A stretch of DNA of 25,469 nucleotides from a virus. Each line of letters opens with the position of its first letter. Positions within the stretch are counted from its first letter, which is position 1. Under the pieces are notes generated by a model, which was given only the letters and a program-made list of their open reading frames with translations, was not told where the DNA came from and ran no database searches. The stretch is from positions 1 through 25,469 of the IMG/VR virus record IMGVR_UViG_3300025828_000168. One strand, 5' to 3'. Below are positions 4,541 through 17,586 of this stretch, piece by piece. Made by a program: the position numbers and the translations under genes.

Positions 4541-5389
4541 TTACTGACGAAGAAGTTCTTCTCGGGTCATGTATTCGTAATCTACATTCTGTTCTATTTC
4601 TCGTTCATCTTTTTCATAAACGGATCGCATGGCATTATTTACGGTAATTATTTCACGCAAAACAGTAAATGATTTATCGAAGTTATAAAAAGCATTTGTA
4701 TCCTTAGGAAAACAAGCTCCGCCATATCCACGTTTACCATCAAACCCAGGCACAGATGTATGAGAGGTACCAATGCGTGGATCAGATAGCATAGCATTCA
4801 GTACGGTATTAAATTTTCCGCCATTATTTTCTACACAATCAAAGAATTGGTTAAACCAAAGTACCTTCGATGCAAGAAAACAATTAATTCCATATTTTAC
4901 AAATGATGCTTCTTTAGCAGTCATAAATTTAATTGGGCAGGGTTTACAACTTGAATAATTGTGATATAGTTCTGCTACAGCTTGTGTCGTTGATCTCTTA
5001 CCACCAAAAACATGCAAAGCTGGATTTACAAAATCTTCATTTGCTGCCTTCTCGGTAAGAAACTCTGGATTGTAAACCATACGAGATTTAGCACCAGGCA
5101 AAAGCATAAGTTGATCAATGACATCTGGTGTCACTGTAGATTTAATAACCACGATTGCTTCTGTATTCTTAAGCATCCAAGCAACAGTTTCTTCTACAAT
5201 GGTAGCGTTGATTTCACCATTATCACCAAAAGGTGTAGGCACTGAAATAAAGGCAAAGTCAACATTTCTTGCATTTTCAATAGGTTTATCTAGTTTTGGA
5301 TCCACAATGATCTGTGTAACTTCTGGGTGTGAAAAACCATAAGACACTGCCTTACCAACAAACCCATATCCGATAATTCCAATTTCCAT
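4541..5389 (-). CDS. UDP-glucose/GDP-mannose dehydrogenase family, short form
   Basis: Likely oxidises a nucleotide sugar (most simply UDP-glucose to UDP-glucuronate) with NAD+. The Rossmann loop GYGFVG is at residues 7-12, followed by SVPTPFG (49-55), NPEFLTE (107-113), Lys165 in the FVKYGIN helix, and the catalytic Cys226 in GYGGACFPKD. With 282 residues it is clearly shorter than the usual 390-450 and appears to lack the C-terminal UDP-binding domain, a truncation also seen in some phage homologues. The start is the ATG at 5389, sharing one base with the TAA of the epimerase gene (TAATG). GGAG lies 8 nt before it, whereas the longer frame start lacks a ribosome site. It forms a two-gene operon with the epimerase. 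Confidence 0.87.
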   Translation of the reverse strand: MEIGIIGYGFVGKAVSYGFSHPEVTQIIVDPKLDKPIENARNVDFAFISVPTPFGDNGEINATIVEETVAWMLKNTEAIVVIKSTVTPDVIDQLMLLPGAKSRMVYNPEFLTEKAANEDFVNPALHVFGGKRSTTQAVAELYHNYSSCKPCPIKFMTAKEASFVKYGINCFLASKVLWFNQFFDCVENNGGKFNTVLNAMLSDPRIGTSHTSVPGFDGKRGYGGACFPKDTNAFYNFDKSFTVLREIITVNNAMRSVYEKDEREIEQNVDYEYMTREELLRQ

Positions 5390-6345
5390 TAATTTACTCC
5401 ATAATATTCTTTGTACCAAGAAATAAACTGAGCAACGCCTTCTTTCACAGAAGTTGTTGGTTTATACCCAAGTGCTTGTAGTTTTGTTGTATCTGACCAA
5501 GTAGCTTGAGTATCAGCAGGATGTTTAGGCACAAATTCTTTAATTGCTTCACGTCCTAGATTTTTTTCAATTTCTTTAACAAAATCCATCAACTGTACTT
5601 GTTCACCATATCCAATATTATAAATTTCTTTTTCACCACCGGTTACAAGCATACGGTATATAAGAAGATCAATACCTTGCACAATATCATCTACATATGT
5701 AAAATCTCGGATCATATCACCATTATTAAACAACTGAATAGGATTACCAGCTACGATATTTTTAGTAAAATCAAACAGTGCCATATCTGGGCGACCCCAT
5801 GGTCCATATACAGTAAAGAACCTAAGACCAATGGCATTGTTTAGATGTGGTGCTGACATCATCTGAGATTCATTTGTAAATTTAGAATAGCCATATGGGT
5901 TTAGTTGATATCCACACTTCTCATCTTCTTTCCACGGCAGCTGGTTACCCGCCATAACACAAGATGTAGAAGCATAAATACAATTTTCTATATCATTTTC
6001 TTTCATTGCCTGAATAAGATTGTGTGTGCCGATAATATTATTTTGGACATAGGATTCAGGATCCACAAGTGAGTGTCGCACGCCAGCATATGCACCTAGA
6101 TGAACCACAATGTCTGGTTTAGTTTCTTTCAGATAATTATTTAAAGAAGTGGCATCACACAAATCAACAGCTGCAATATTAATATCATTTTCACGATATA
6201 GTTTATCTGCTCTTGCATGTTTGAGTGTTGGATCATAGTAATTATTGTAACTATCAAAACCGCAAACTTCATAGTTAGGTGCTAGTTTTTTAGCCAAATG
6301 ATAAGCAATAAAACCGGCACCGCCGGTGATACAAATTTTAGTCAT
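5389..6345 (-). CDS. NAD-dependent sugar-nucleotide epimerase (UDP-glucuronate 4-epimerase-like)
   Basis: A 318-residue extended short-chain dehydrogenase. The nucleotide loop TGGAGFI is at residues 7-13, AGVRHSL at 87-93, an ST pair at 126-127, and the catalytic Tyr151-x3-Lys155 in YGYSK. The GLRFFTVYGPWGRPDMALF segment, especially WGRPDMA, is the hallmark of UDP-glucuronate 4-epimerases (LpsL/Cap1J type). Paired with the downstream dehydrogenase it would convert UDP-glucose to UDP-glucuronate and then UDP-galacturonate. The ATG at 6345 has AAGGA about 8 nt upstream and its own early promoter at 6373-6401. Substrate specificity is inferred from motif similarity; a related 4,6-dehydratase or pentose epimerase role is less likely but possible. 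Confidence 0.87.
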   Translation of the reverse strand: MTKICITGGAGFIAYHLAKKLAPNYEVCGFDSYNNYYDPTLKHARADKLYRENDINIAAVDLCDATSLNNYLKETKPDIVVHLGAYAGVRHSLVDPESYVQNNIIGTHNLIQAMKENDIENCIYASTSCVMAGNQLPWKEDEKCGYQLNPYGYSKFTNESQMMSAPHLNNAIGLRFFTVYGPWGRPDMALFDFTKNIVAGNPIQLFNNGDMIRDFTYVDDIVQGIDLLIYRMLVTGGEKEIYNIGYGEQVQLMDFVKEIEKNLGREAIKEFVPKHPADTQATWSDTTKLQALGYKPTTSVKEGVAQFISWYKEYYGVN

Positions 6346-6372
6346 ATGGAGTTCCTTGTTTTAGATAATTAC

Positions 6373-6401
6373 ATTATATACTATTATATAGTATTTGTAA
6401 A
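6373..6401 (-). promoter_or_regulatory. Putative early promoter for epimerase/dehydrogenase operon
   Basis: GGTGTTTACA with -35 at 6401-6396, a 17-nt spacer and TATAAT at 6378-6373 on the minus strand, immediately after the stop codon of the TagD-like gene. A second TATAAT at 6388-6383 has only a 7-nt spacer and is not usable with this -35. Confidence 0.85.
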
Positions 6402-6404
6402 CAC

Positions 6405-6830
6405 CTATTTTTTCTCAAATACTCTTTTTCTTAGATCAGTAGAACTAAATCTATGAGTTCTGGAATTAAAGTAGAGTTCAATGCCTTTCCGTTTACAGAT
6501 GTCTCTGCCTGTAAAATCTTGATCTCTATATTCTTCTCCCATAATTTTAACATCAATATCAAACATTTCTAAAATATCTTCAACATCTTGTTCTGTCTGA
6601 TATGGAATAATTTCATTCACATACTGAATAGCAGAAAGTTGTACATATCTTTCTACAAGTGTTTGTACTGGTTTATTTTTCGTCTCTGGTCTGTCTATAG
6701 TAGGATCTGATTGAATTCCACAAATAAGATAATCACACTGTGATTTTGCTTCCCTTAACATAGCCACATGACCAGCGTGTAGTAGATCAAATGTGGAAAA
6801 TGTAATACCTACCGTTTTAGGATTTGCCAT
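6405..6830 (-). CDS. TagD-like cytidylyltransferase/nucleotidyltransferase
   Basis: A 141-residue nucleotidyltransferase of the glycerol-3-phosphate cytidylyltransferase / heptose-1-phosphate adenylyltransferase group. The HAGH signature is at residues 18-21 inside TFSTFDLLHAGHVAML, and the C-terminal RFSSTDLRKRV contains the ISSTxxR-like motif. It would activate a sugar- or polyol-phosphate with CTP or ATP. The start is taken at the ATG at 6830, with GGAG about 6 nt ahead; the longer frame begins at a TTG that is part of this ribosome site. It overlaps the PMM-like gene by 22 bp and ends the operon that begins at 9580. The exact substrate cannot be read from the sequence. Confidence 0.82.
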   Translation of the reverse strand: MANPKTVGITFSTFDLLHAGHVAMLREAKSQCDYLICGIQSDPTIDRPETKNKPVQTLVERYVQLSAIQYVNEIIPYQTEQDVEDILEMFDIDVKIMGEEYRDQDFTGRDICKRKGIELYFNSRTHRFSSTDLRKRVFEKK

Positions 6831-7501
6831 GTTTCTCTCCAATCTTTTACATGATGTATTATGCCGCCTGAATTTGCTACTTCTAATGCCAAACTATAAT
6901 CATTACCTTTTGAGTGCATTTGGTCACCAAAAAATGTTATTTTCTTTTCTGGTCCAAAATCGTGTATAATCTGGCTTTTATCGTAACCTTTTTGCACTAT
7001 ATCTATGCCAGTTTCTCCAGCAACCTGTATATTATAATCTGGCCAGATAAGAGACAAGTTTTCTACCAATAGGTTTCTTTCACAATAATAGTTATCAAAT
7101 TCTTTATACAACTGACGTTGTTCGGTTGTAGCATTTCTACCAAGAGTACTAAAATTAAATAGCCCAGGTCTTATATCAAAGTGATTTCCTGTTTTTATTG
7201 GAGATTTACTATGTTCTAATAGTCTACCTAAAATATTTTTCCAATCTTTAGGCATCTTCATTTTATTTGTTCTGACATGACTGTTACCAGCCCAAACATC
7301 ATTACCGCTACAATTATAAACTCTAATACAAGAATTGTAATGACCATAACCTACTTGTTCAAGAGTTTTGTCTCTGTCTGAACCAGTTACCATAAATGTA
7401 GCATGATGTGTCTGGAAGTGTTCAAGCCAGTTAGAAAACTTTTGATCTATTTTTCCACGACTTGGTGTGAGAGTTCCATCTACATCAAAGATGTAGTTCA
7501 T
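6809..7501 (-). CDS. Phosphomannomutase-like HAD-family protein
   Basis: A 230-residue HAD-superfamily protein whose motifs follow the eukaryotic-type phosphomannomutase family. These are the nucleophile/acid pair in FDVDGTLTPSR (Asp6, Asp8), RPGLFNFSTLGRNAT near the middle (PMM: RNGMLNVSPIGR), GETGIDIVQKGYDKSQ (PMM: SIDVFPxGWDK), and the metal-binding FFGDQMHSKGND near residues 190-200. It could interconvert hexose-6- and hexose-1-phosphates, or be a sugar-phosphate phosphatase. Its ATG overlaps the TGA of the cupin gene (7498-7501), and a nucleotidyltransferase follows, consistent with a route from sugar phosphate to nucleotide sugar. Activity is inferred from family likeness. Confidence 0.75.
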   Translation of the reverse strand: MNYIFDVDGTLTPSRGKIDQKFSNWLEHFQTHHATFMVTGSDRDKTLEQVGYGHYNSCIRVYNCSGNDVWAGNSHVRTNKMKMPKDWKNILGRLLEHSKSPIKTGNHFDIRPGLFNFSTLGRNATTEQRQLYKEFDNYYCERNLLVENLSLIWPDYNIQVAGETGIDIVQKGYDKSQIIHDFGPEKKITFFGDQMHSKGNDYSLALEVANSGGIIHHVKDWRETWQILKR

Positions 7502-7845
7502 TTCATTTCACCAACTGATTCACGAATAATATCATTATGATTGAATTCTGCCCAGTACAGCTCATAAGCTACACCCGACTCCAAACATTCAAACTGATGG
7601 TATAGTCCAGGCTTAACCCTTGTATACTCGTTAGGGCCAATAATGGTTTCGTCTACAAGATCATAGTCACGCTGCCACACGCGCACGAGCATCTTCCCAG
7701 ACTCCACATAGAATCCATTCCATTTGTAGCGGTGTAGATGCTTAGAGCACATCCCACCTGCTTTCATTTCAATACGGTGAAATTCTAATGCACCGTTTGC
7801 TTCTATCAGTTCTGTGGTTCCCCACACCTTTCCAGCCTTGGTCAT
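7498..7845 (-). CDS. Cupin-domain protein (sugar-phosphate isomerase-like)
   Basis: A 115-residue single cupin. The first metal motif is visible as HLH (residues 36-38) within a KHLHRYKWNGFYVESGKMLV stretch, and the second as the YHQFE segment (His83) after a PG turn. The arrangement resembles the C-terminal cupin of mannose-6-phosphate isomerase / mannose-1-phosphate guanylyltransferase and WbuC-type proteins. Next to a phosphomannomutase-like gene, a role in hexose-phosphate isomerisation or binding is plausible but unproven. The ATG at 7845 lies inside a six-codon mini-frame (7842-7859) with its own AAGGA, so translation may be coupled to that leader. The stop overlaps the start of the next gene as ATGA. 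Confidence 0.75.
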   Translation of the reverse strand: MTKAGKVWGTTELIEANGALEFHRIEMKAGGMCSKHLHRYKWNGFYVESGKMLVRVWQRDYDLVDETIIGPNEYTRVKPGLYHQFECLESGVAYELYWAEFNHNDIIRESVGEMK

Positions 7846-7885
7846 CTTTCTCTATCCATACTCTTTTTCCTTCAACTAGTTTCCA

Positions 7886-8635
7886 TTATATTCCTAACAA
7901 TTTCCAAAATGCATGATGTGATGCATGAGGGTGATCATCAAATATATATTTCATAATAGGCATAAGTTTTTCTTTAGGTACAAAATAATAGTCACTTCTT
8001 CGTTTATAAACCGTCACATAATCCAGCGGCTTCAATATTTCTTCTAAAGAAATAGGATTTTCTTTCCATTCTGCAACAATTATAGGTCTAGCAGTCTCAA
8101 TGGTTTTAACAGCACCTCGAAGAACATGAGCTTCCCAACCTTCTACATCTAGTTTCATAAGAGATAATTTTGTAAAACCGTACGAGTCCAAAGTTCTCAC
8201 AGGAAGTCTAAAAAATTCATAAGACTTGGTTGGTCTTTTATGATCACCTACGAGTACTTCTTTGTCAGTCATAAAACGTGAGGTTCCACAACGATCAAAT
8301 TTCATTTTATATGGAATAACTGTTTCTTGATCAGACAGACCAATATTATATGCTTTTACATTAGAAATATTAAAATGTTCAAGATTTTTTACTAGACAAT
8401 TATATAAAGGTTTTGCAGGCTCCCAAGTATAAACTTTATCAAAATAACGAGATAATCCAATAGCCATTTGTCCTACATTGCCACCTATATCCAGACAAAT
8501 TTTAGTATCACTAGCAGATAAGAAATATTTGACAGTAAATTCTGCCATATGGTTCTGCCATTCTTCTGGCGACCAGTGTGCTAAACCGTTATCATTTTCG
8601 GTATCAAGTACCCACCAGTTATTTAATTGTTTCAT
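7886..8635 (-). CDS. FkbM-family methyltransferase
   Basis: A 249-residue SAM-dependent methyltransferase. The SAM-binding loop is LDIGGNVGQ (around residues 48-56), and the FkbM-type LMKLDVEGWEAHVLRGA segment lies near residues 158-175, with Asp/Glu at the usual positions. FkbM enzymes generally O-methylate sugars or other small hydroxyl groups. In this cluster of sugar genes, methylation of the final sugar is a reasonable inference. It follows the primase-like gene by 3 nt and precedes the cupin gene by 40 nt, all in the operon from the promoter at 9587-9615. No signal peptide or membrane segment is seen. Confidence 0.88.
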   Translation of the reverse strand: MKQLNNWWVLDTENDNGLAHWSPEEWQNHMAEFTVKYFLSASDTKICLDIGGNVGQMAIGLSRYFDKVYTWEPAKPLYNCLVKNLEHFNISNVKAYNIGLSDQETVIPYKMKFDRCGTSRFMTDKEVLVGDHKRPTKSYEFFRLPVRTLDSYGFTKLSLMKLDVEGWEAHVLRGAVKTIETARPIIVAEWKENPISLEEILKPLDYVTVYKRRSDYYFVPKEKLMPIMKYIFDDHPHASHHAFWKLLGI

Positions 8636-15559: not shown

Positions 15560-15590
15560 AATTTATTCAAGTCCTGTTTTATATAATCAA

Positions 15591-15612
15591 AGGGGCTGGA
15601 AAACCAGCCCCT
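15591..15612 (-). terminator. Strong stem-loop, probable intrinsic terminator of the Hsp20 operon
   Basis: Perfect 9-bp GC-rich arms, AGGGGCTGG and CCAGCCCCT, enclose a 4-nt loop. On the minus strand the stem is followed by TTTGATTATAT, an imperfect U-tract. It lies between the 58-aa gene and the nuclease gene and would end transcripts from the late promoter at 16496-16503. It is the only clear terminator in the window. Confidence 0.8.
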
Positions 15613-15626
15613 CTAGTGTATACTTT

Positions 15627-15803
15627 TTAACACTTTTTCAGTTTTGCAACTTCCATCATGCATCTTTTTGCTAGGTCATATTGACCTTGCTGTGCAAAAT
15701 AAGCAGCTGCTCTACTATGTCCAATAATTTCTGTCCAAATTAAAAAACTTTTCCAAAAACCACTAAGCGGATTTGCGACATAATTTGTTGTCATTTCAAT
15801 CAT
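15627..15803 (-). CDS. 58-residue small protein, function unknown
   Basis: A short protein with an aromatic, fairly hydrophobic first half (around WKSFLIWTEIIG) and an Ala/Gln-rich helical second half (SRAAAYFAQQGQYDLAKRC, ending KLKKC). The hydrophobic stretch is too interrupted to call a membrane helix. The start is the ATG at 15803, with AAGGA about 8 nt upstream; the frame extends further but inside the DUF1127 gene. It overlaps that gene by 8 bp. The second half resembles the short helical segments of small alphaproteobacterial proteins that accompany DUF1127, but I cannot name a family. It is the last gene before the terminator of a late operon. Confidence 0.65.
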   Translation of the reverse strand: MIEMTTNYVANPLSGFWKSFLIWTEIIGHSRAAAYFAQQGQYDLAKRCMMEVAKLKKC

Positions 15804-16014
15804 TAGACAATCCTTTATAAGAAACGTACCAAACATCACCTCGTGAAAGGCCAATATCACCCAATTCCTTATCAGTTAATTTTGATAATTCTTTGAATGT
15901 TTCTCGTGATAGTCTATTTTCTTTTCTTGATTTGTCAATCGATTTAAAAAATTCAAAGATGGTCTCAACCACCCTCGTTAAGTAGCTGTGCGCTACTAGT
16001 ACTGCCTGTGTCAT
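15796..16014 (-). CDS. DUF1127 (YjiS-like) small protein
   Basis: A 72-residue protein whose C-terminal part, RETFKELSKLTDKELGDIGLSRGDV, is a textbook DUF1127 domain (pattern: R-x2-eL-x2-L-x-D-x2-L-x-DIGL-x-R-x-D-i). DUF1127 proteins are abundant in alphaproteobacteria. Some bind RNA, for example CcaF1 of Rhodobacter, and some affect stress or phosphate responses. The start is placed at the ATG at 16014, which lies inside the 3' end of hsp20 (50-bp overlap); the ribosome site there is weak (GGGGA). It shares the late promoter, the Hsp20 gene and the terminator. A role in tuning host RNA metabolism late in infection is a guess. The exact start is the weakest part of this call. Confidence 0.78.
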   Translation of the reverse strand: MTQAVLVAHSYLTRVVETIFEFFKSIDKSRKENRLSRETFKELSKLTDKELGDIGLSRGDVWYVSYKGLSND

Positions 16015-16435
16015 TTGTTTTCCCCGTTTGGCCAATATGGATTTTACGAGAACGCATTTCTTCTGGAATAACATACTGCAATTTAATTGCCAGGATGCCA
16101 TCTTGAATATCTGCTCCATTAACATTTACGTGTTCGGACAGCCTAAAAGTGCGTTTAAACTTCTTTGTGGAAATACCACGATGAATAAACTCTCTACCTT
16201 TAGATTTATGTTCACCTGTTACGGTTAGTGTACGGTCTTTAACCTCAACACTAATCTCATCCTTTGAGAACCCAGCAATAGCCAGTTCGATCAAATAATC
16301 TTGATCACTTGACTTAATAATATTGTGAGGTGGATAGTGGTCATTTGCATGCTGAGCCGTAAATTCTAGCTCTTTAAGCAAGTGGTCAAATCCCACAAAA
16401 GATGCACGGGGAAATAATGTGTGTAAGCCTGTCAT
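15965..16435 (-). CDS. hsp20: Small heat-shock protein Hsp20 (IbpA-like)
   Basis: A 156-residue ATP-independent chaperone. The alpha-crystallin domain spans about residues 35-130: PPHNIIKSSDQDYLIELAIAG, then DEISVEVKDRTLTVTGEH, an RGIS...FKRTFRLSEHV segment and DGILAIKL. After the domain, the IHI triplet in RKIHIGQ serves as the I-x-I motif that docks subunits. Hsp20 is a known accessory gene of marine T4-like phages and is thought to protect structural proteins during assembly. AAGGAG lies about 7 nt before the ATG at 16435. An exact late promoter box lies 60 bp upstream, which suits such a role. The tail after residue 135 is Ser/Thr/Gly-rich. Confidence 0.93.
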   Translation of the reverse strand: MTGLHTLFPRASFVGFDHLLKELEFTAQHANDHYPPHNIIKSSDQDYLIELAIAGFSKDEISVEVKDRTLTVTGEHKSKGREFIHRGISTKKFKRTFRLSEHVNVNGADIQDGILAIKLQYVIPEEMRSRKIHIGQTGKTNDTGSTSSAQLLNEGG

Positions 16436-16495
16436 GTTTATCTCCTTTATACAAGCAAGATTTAAAAATGGACCGGGTAATTCCGCATCCTACGT

Positions 16496-16503
16496 TATTT
16501 ATA
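16496..16503 (-). promoter_or_regulatory. T4-type late promoter box TATAAATA for Hsp20 operon
   Basis: The minus strand reads TATAAATA from 16503 to 16496 in the 118-bp gap before hsp20. It is in the right orientation and distance (leader about 50 nt) to drive Hsp20, DUF1127 and the 58-aa protein. Confidence 0.85.
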
Positions 16504-17132: not shown

Positions 17133-17543
17133 TTACTTAGAGCCTATATTGTATTTGGGGCATAATTCCCATTCAGATTTTTCTTTGAAGGGAATAATTT
17201 TAATCTGGCGGAGTGGTGCCATAACAAGTTCTTCTTTTTTCGCAAATTTAATAAGACCCCAATCACTTAATAGTGTAGAGATTGTATTCCTACGAGCAAT
17301 ATCATTGAGTTCAAAGTTAGATTTCTTTCCGTCTAATAGAAATAACTCTTTAAAATGAACAATAAAATATCTGCCTTGTTTATGTAAAATATGACAAGAT
17401 TGATATAGTTTTTTGTCTTGTCGAGACGCTACACCTATTCTTGTAAGAGTTTCCCGAACCTTTAGAAAATCGTCTGGTTCATTTAATGTTATCTCTAGCA
17501 TACTTGCTGGAGACCAATTTACTACCTCAGCCACTTCTTCCAT
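17133..17543 (-). CDS. regA: RegA translational repressor
   Basis: RegA binds the initiation regions of phage early mRNAs, including its own and those of clamp and clamp-loader genes in T4, and blocks translation. The protein is recognisable from MLEITLNEPDDFLKVRETLTRIGVA, LYQSCHILHKQGRYFIVHFKE, DWGLI and the C-terminal FKEKSEWELCPKYNIG, closely paralleling T4 RegA (122 residues). The start is taken at the ATG at 17543, with AAGGTG 6 nt ahead; a GTG three codons upstream is within that ribosome site. This gives 136 residues and a 14-residue N-terminal extension (EEVAEVVNWSPAS) relative to T4. It follows gp62 as in T4 but has a late promoter box in the gap. Confidence 0.93.
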   Translation of the reverse strand: MEEVAEVVNWSPASMLEITLNEPDDFLKVRETLTRIGVASRQDKKLYQSCHILHKQGRYFIVHFKELFLLDGKKSNFELNDIARRNTISTLLSDWGLIKFAKKEELVMAPLRQIKIIPFKEKSEWELCPKYNIGSK

Positions 17544-17586
17544 AATTTTCACCTTTTTATTTTTATTATAGAATAATTTACTAAAC

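Follow-up and report, generated by a model that had tools for sequence, protein, structure and literature searches.

The window analysed here is a 25,469-base IMG/VR virus fragment, and it carries the replication region of a T4-like phage with its genes on the - strand. Profile scans cover gp43, regA, gp62, uvsX, uvsW and the late sigma factor gene, and the names gp44, gp46 and gp47, which lie outside the genes scanned by profile, are assigned from the sequence. Within this region three consecutive genes encode a small heat-shock protein (Hsp20), a DUF1127 protein and a 58-residue protein, hereafter s58 (Table 1). The closest NCBIfam model to hsp20 is IbpA, with a score below the IbpA cut-off, and the DUF1127 protein scores 34.7 bits against a PF06568 cut-off of 23.3, placing it in that Pfam family. 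No match above chance was found for s58 in Pfam, PHROGs or NCBIfam. The DUF1127 frame starts about 50 nt inside the 3' end of hsp20 (position -49), preceded by a Shine-Dalgarno-like GGGG, and the s58 start overlaps the DUF1127 stop. The preliminary description had reported these three genes, the nesting of DUF1127 in the end of hsp20 and a single operon of overlapping genes behind a late promoter box; our analysis agrees on the genes and the nesting, and supports the operon in this phage. Elsewhere in the window (4541-8635, - strand) lies a series of genes that resemble those of sugar-nucleotide and surface-polysaccharide enzymes (dehydrogenase, epimerase, nucleotidyltransferase, cupin and FkbM-type methyltransferase).

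Table 1. Features of the hsp20 locus and its surroundings in the window (columns: feature, position, strand, remarks).
T4-type late promoter box TATAAATA	16496..16503	-	68 nt before hsp20
Leader hairpin I	16470..16490	-	outer stem, UG/G internal loop, inner stem (predicted)
Leader hairpin II	16440..16461	-	anti-SD UUGCU 16454-16458, bulged G, paired to SD AAGGAG 16442-16447 (predicted)
hsp20, small heat-shock protein, 156 aa	15965..16435	-	PF00011 E 1.7e-17; phrog_432 E 4e-36
DUF1127 small protein, 72 aa	15796..16014	-	PF06568 E 1.5e-8
s58, 58-aa small protein	15627..15803	-	overlaps DUF1127 end; conserved family
11-bp hairpin after s58	15589..15614	-	weak U-tract
regA	17133-17552	-	PF01818 E 2.2e-43; two genes upstream of hsp20
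uvsW, gp47, gp46, gp44, gp62, regA, gp43, uvsX		-	among the window genes

Related hsp20 loci were taken as the best 80 of 593, 397, 593 and 590 confirmed matches, and the proportions given below for these best-80 sets hold for them only. Besides the window-like group, three further groups were gathered with cyanophage, HTVC115P and Melnitz hsp20 queries. Together they yielded 215 distinct leaders: 52 window-like (set A), 39 from cyanophages (B), 58 HTVC115P-like (C), 59 Melnitz-like (D) and seven from named records (E).

Three copies of TATAAATA occur on the - strand of the window compared to 2.4 in shuffles, so the number alone is at chance level and the significance of the box comes from its position. 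Among the matches listed, the relatives have 58 distinct upstream stretches of 130 nt, and 37 of these contain a late box. Between -90 and -50, it was found in 32 of 47 window-like leaders and in none of the 47 control stretches; the corresponding counts are 34/57 for Melnitz-like, 5/37 for cyanophage and 3/56 for HTVC115P-like leaders, with none in the control stretches (best-80 sets). The phage also encodes a late sigma factor of its own (phrog_234, E 2.7e-50), and both elements of a putative T4-type late operon, a box before the gene and a phage late sigma, are present. When 48 window-like leaders of the best-80 set were sorted by promoter, 33 had a late box, 13 had a loosely defined sigma70-like pattern instead, and two had neither. 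The predicted late promoter is typical, not universal, among window-like relatives, and the initial view that a late box drives the operon fits the window, with its box and its sigma gene, better than it fits the group as a whole. Two further copies of the box stand on the - strand of the window, one at 17594-17587, 42 nt before regA, and one at 2955-2948, 26 nt before a homing-endonuclease-like ORF (phrog_655, E 2.9e-20).

At the other end, the hairpin after s58 is probably the end of the operon. The 71 nt from 15570 to 15640 fold at -24.6 kcal/mol (z -4.57), confirming a strong hairpin, with a stem of 11 bp and not the 9 bp reported earlier. The U-tract is poor (UUUGAUUAUAU) and the hairpin is not listed in a terminator scan of the window, which weakens its description as a strong terminator.

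Between the promoter box and hsp20 lies a two-hairpin leader (16440-16490, - strand) that the preliminary description had overlooked. It became apparent from a comparison of the upstream sequences of relatives, which share a strongly conserved 60-nt leader. Hairpin I is predicted both from the window sequence alone and on the alignment. In hairpin II, AUCUU-g-CUU is predicted to pair with AAGGAGAU, forming the U(U/C)GCU motif with a bulged G. Both hairpins emerge unprompted when RNAalifold is applied to the 52 window-like leaders, and 95.7% of the cells in the pair counts for these leaders are paired. Cells in which both sides have changed number 95 compared to 27.3 in shuffles (none of 500 shuffles reaches 95), and the covariation score is 0.325 compared to 0.03-0.07 for slid versions. 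The covariation resides mostly in hairpin I, where both sides have changed in six of the eight pairs of helix 1, and hairpin II is nearly invariant within the window-like group because the Shine-Dalgarno sequence lies in it. Comparison across groups does reveal covariation in the base pair next to the core of hairpin II (115 of 202 paired versus 76 in shuffles, with a maximum of 92 over 2000 shuffles); its outer flank shows none (83 paired versus 78 in shuffles). Taken alone, the window leader is not unusually stable (z -1.36 and -0.86), and single-sequence stability, being not significant, was dropped as evidence.

We then compared the leader with known RNA families. The best of 4227 Rfam families is ROSE_3 (RF02523), which matches 16430-16494 over the whole model with 22.4 bits (E 0.0065), below the gathering score of 43, a curated cut-off and not a biological feature. 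ROSE_3 also matches three of 12 relatives scanned (26.8-30.5 bits); no ROSE match with an E of 1 or less was obtained for the other nine. The gathering score was reached neither in the window nor in any of 38 further loci (0/38), and we therefore name the leader ROSE-like and not an Rfam ROSE element. Its placement in front of a small heat-shock gene, its two hairpins and the predicted pairing of U(U/C)GCU with the Shine-Dalgarno through a bulged G are what is seen in this class. In Pseudomonas, a leader of two hairpins with U(U/C)GCU over the Shine-Dalgarno is described as a working thermometer (PMC3669281), and the bulged G is described as a hallmark of bacterial ROSE-like elements (PMC11182007). 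On sequence grounds, the hsp20 leader thus appears to have the hallmarks of a ROSE RNA thermometer.

The same motif recurs well beyond the window. In the best-80 sets, U(U/C)GCU precedes the Shine-Dalgarno in 209 of the 215 distinct phage hsp20 leaders, of which one (L250) resembles coding sequence and is to be discounted, compared to five of 452 other Shine-Dalgarno-bearing ORFs at the same loci. By group, the motif was found in 52/52 window-like, 39/39 cyanophage, 52/58 HTVC115P-like and 59/59 Melnitz-like leaders and in 7/7 named records. A separate alignment, on which none of the counts rests, leaves out L250 and six rows without a normal leader (L245, L247, L255, L256, L259 and L276). Hairpin I with a YG/R internal loop is present in 174 of the 215 leaders of these sets compared to about 2.5 expected (A 52/52, B 39/39, C 22/58, D 55/59, E 6/7), and the identical test also detects this hairpin in the leader of E. 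coli ibpA. A covariance model (R1) built from 50 of the 52 window-like leaders (all but L010 and L037) detects Melnitz at 47.6 bits and C48C1 at 45.3 bits, matches three of four cyanophage loci and HTVC115P weakly (14.0-18.5 bits) and does not find the E. coli ibpA leader. Taken together, the shared motif, the recurrence of hairpin I and the uneven scores of the model suggest a shared ROSE-like leader that comes in sub-types. The leader counts are not independent, given the relatedness of sequences within each group; with this in mind, a ROSE-type leader appears to be a widely shared feature of phage hsp20 in four marine phage groups.

We next turned to the two small genes. Among the matches listed, hsp20 is complete to its stop codon in 105 loci, and in 101 of them a small ORF begins within the last part of the gene, nearly always at -49. 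The four exceptions are L024, L082 and L100, whose sequences stop shortly downstream of hsp20, and C48C1, where the sole overlapping ORF has 35 residues. In the best-80 sets, a nested ORF was found in 50/50 complete window-like, 34/35 cyanophage, 5/56 HTVC115P-like and 0/57 Melnitz-like loci. The nested ORF of the cyanophages (L119, L154, L187 and others) is a different one; that of L119 is phrog_2587 (E 2e-32), unrelated to DUF1127.

The content of the nested slot varies within the window-like group as well. Eight loci (L033, L047, L048, L049, L064 and L026-L028) hold, in the same slots, a protein of an SRQA-motif family followed by a DUF3563-like protein (PF12086, E 3e-6 and 1e-3). Among the matches listed, the first five of these are the closest to the window in exo and gp43, with 77-92% identity where comparable. 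Distinct pairs amount to 53 of DUF1127 with s58, five of SRQA with DUF3563-like and no mixed pair, again among the matches listed, and in seven further pairs the second gene was not found, all on loci that end soon after. DUF1127 and s58 are also found together away from hsp20, in the same order in L025 and in reversed order in Melnitz. As far as the sequences tell, the small genes are exchanged as a paired unit in a fixed slot. A movable cassette of all three genes, as first proposed, is rejected because only the two small genes are exchanged: among the matches listed, most relatives have the trio flanked by regA and gp43, and the leader, hsp20 and the nested slot stay fixed. What survives of that proposal is that the pair of small genes swaps as a unit and can occur elsewhere. 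Several relatives carry an ATP synthase subunit c gene directly after the operon (PF00137, E 3.9e-11 for the one copy scanned), downstream of s58 at L036:3818-4039 and L095:3821-4042 and followed by a short hydrophobic ORF. At L025:4001-4700, the ORF after DUF1127 and s58 has a signal-peptide-like start and resembles, by eye, a blue copper protein.

Both small genes are under purifying selection in relatives, with pN/pS of 0.27 for DUF1127 (after the overlap) and 0.32 for s58. In the 48-nt overlap of hsp20 and DUF1127 (loci L003-L109), pN/pS is about 0.65 in both frames compared to 0.17 for the main part of hsp20, a pattern that constraint on the two frames at once would produce. AlphaFold models show plain helices at moderate confidence, with a helical DUF1127 (mean pLDDT 78.1) and two helices for s58 (70.6). 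We also considered s58 as a diverged DUF1127, which a profile comparison does not support (probability 7.5%), and as a TPR protein, a match below the Pfam cut-off (E 0.059) that was not used. DUF1127 carries the PF06568 core L-x-D-x-x-L-x-D-I-G-x-x-R and is rich in lysine rather than arginine: counted by eye, five of its 72 residues (about 7%) are arginine compared to a family average of about 14% (PMC12501420), an average and not a rule of membership. Members of the family have been described as binding RNA (CcaF1) or as controlling phosphate uptake via PhoR (SDPs, YjiS) (PMC12501420), and either function would suit a phage. Among the matches listed, a C-terminal GWV is present in all but two of 54 distinct DUF1127 proteins (52), and one of the two without it is that of the window. 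The DUF3563-like proteins terminate in NLKGWI, NLRGKWI or a close variant, which gives two unrelated families a common tail. Across loci L003-L109, a tail of the form NL[KRQ]GWV or NL[KR]G.WI is common to unrelated small proteins.

DUF1127 had also been taken to point to an alphaproteobacterial host, a conclusion that the comparison does not bear out. Melnitz, whose host belongs to the Methylophilales and is called gammaproteobacterial OM43 (PMC9004378), carries both DUF1127 and s58, and the Pfam family also has matches in E. coli; we therefore rejected host assignment by DUF1127. In a comparison with plasmids, the best DUF1127 matches are alphaproteobacterial over only 30-38 residues, the conserved core being shorter than 40 residues. 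A comparison of gp43 gives C48C1 (55%, no host recorded) and then mainly cyanophages (46-47%).

Based on these observations, we propose that the locus is a translationally gated stress operon with a ROSE-like hsp20 leader, a reading to which we assign a probability of roughly 0.68. Transcription would begin just before hairpin I, from the late box or, in some relatives, from a sigma70-like promoter in the same place. Hairpin I would serve as the stable scaffold of a short two-hairpin ROSE-like element, and hairpin II would hide the hsp20 Shine-Dalgarno by UUGCU pairing through the bulged G. If warming or some other disturbance opens hairpin II, the site would become available for translation of hsp20, and ribosomes on hsp20 would then feed the nested DUF1127 start and, via the overlapping stop and start, s58. 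With such translational coupling, a single RNA gate would set the output of all three genes. Hsp20 would hold unfolding phage or host proteins, and the two small helical proteins, DUF1127 and s58, may work as a matched pair that regulates host RNA or signaling.

Thermodynamic modelling gives an uneven picture of the temperature response. Modelled exposure of the Shine-Dalgarno of the window hsp20 is 0.20 at 5 °C and climbs to 0.74 at 37 °C, compared to an average of 0.55 to 0.62 over 5-37 °C for 13 other window genes (24 were tried, 11 being without a Shine-Dalgarno by the test used). The mean for window-like leaders is already 0.56 at 5 °C, exposure changes little among Melnitz-like leaders (0.58 to 0.68), and it stays low up to 50 °C in cyanophage (0.31) and HTVC115P-like (0.35) leaders. 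When 30 nt of coding sequence are added to the window leader, the lowest-energy fold at 4-37 °C differs from the two-hairpin form. Because of the disagreement between groups and this change of fold, we infer thermosensing from the ROSE design and do not regard it as a result of the modelling.

The stimulus could alternatively be protein damage. The E. coli IbpA represses its own synthesis through its leader (PMC10474464), and by this precedent free phage Hsp20 would bind its own ROSE leader and block translation until titration by aggregates opens the operon, which would sense protein damage in infection rather than temperature. In the best-80 sets, the equivalent of Tyr34 is kept in all 45 window-like Hsp20 proteins, and the equivalent of Arg93 is arginine in 34/34 cyanophage and 49/56 Melnitz-like proteins; 17 of 48 HTVC115P-like proteins are outside the residue pattern used. 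At this position (E. coli numbering), all 45 window-like proteins of the best-80 set, including that of the window, have lysine, and R93K abolishes self-repression in E. coli (PMC10474464). Self-repression is therefore a better match for the cyanophage and Melnitz groups than for the window, and as an account of the present locus we consider it unlikely. The lysine of the window-like group and the arginine of the cyanophages suggest that the two groups may use the leader differently. A more speculative extension, which we regard as quite doubtful, is that in the window group a translationally coupled DUF1127 protein, or its substitute, has replaced Hsp20 as the RNA-binding feedback regulator of the ROSE-type leader that marine-phage hsp20 genes appear to share, since the Hsp20 of this group lacks the arginine needed for IbpA-type self-repression.

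The hairpins might instead be bound by a phage protein, such as the translational repressor RegA, or stabilize the 5' end of the mRNA. The conserved asymmetric internal loop of hairpin I is typical of protein sites and lies at the presumed 5' end, and regA is encoded only two genes upstream; the exact pairing of hairpin II with the Shine-Dalgarno through UYGCU and the likeness to bacterial ROSE elements would both be left unexplained, making this very improbable. Least credible of all is a host-derived late cassette under purely transcriptional control, for which the late box in the window and the phage late sigma gene would speak, because a leader acting as a mere ribosome binding site would keep neither compensatory changes nor the same hairpins across four phage groups, and would not stay in place while the promoter type varies.

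If the proposed gate exists, a phage gene that is widely shared may be under the control of temperature or protein stress: the presence of a ROSE-type leader in the cyanophage, Melnitz-like, HTVC115P-like and window groups suggests that the dose of Hsp20 is gated by temperature or protein damage, and RNA-based temperature control would then extend to phages whose hosts are abundant in the ocean. The fixed slot nested in hsp20, holding different small proteins in different lineages, would offer a catalogue of small host-like regulators tied to this gate.

The components of this arrangement, ROSE elements, DUF1127 and phage hsp20, are each already known. In the open-licence literature that links ROSE elements or other RNA thermometers to hsp20 of phages or cyanophages, we found no report of a ROSE element in a phage, which does not prove absence. 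The thermometer of SPbeta blyA is reportedly a fourU element, going by the title of the blyA paper. Phage RNA thermometers have been described for lambda cIII, SPbeta blyA, called only the second found in a phage genome, and, as a fourU candidate, the sigma70 gene of a gut member of the Caudoviricetes (PMC11182007). These also reside in phage leaders, and in the available part of that source none is described as ROSE or on hsp20. hsp20 itself is a core gene of T4-like cyanophages, for which a role in capsid maturation has been suggested (PMC3037559); this is the same gene in the same phage superfamily, and the available part of that paper makes no mention of a leader or of nested ORFs. The phage DUF1127 resembles CcaF1, the Agrobacterium SDPs and YjiS in its PF06568 core and differs from them in being nested in hsp20 and lysine-rich rather than arginine-rich. 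Unlike the ROSE elements of bacteria, whose Rfam family number we take to be RF00435, the leader described here is found in phages, scores below the Rfam cut-off and is followed by overlapping, exchangeable small genes, and its temperature response is a predicted one. Like the ROSE-like thermometers (ROSE_3, and the short Pseudomonas ibpA type), it precedes a small heat-shock gene and combines two predicted hairpins with a U(U/C)GCU anti-Shine-Dalgarno and a bulged G in the 3' hairpin, and like the leader of E. coli ibpA it has a YG/R internal loop in hairpin I.
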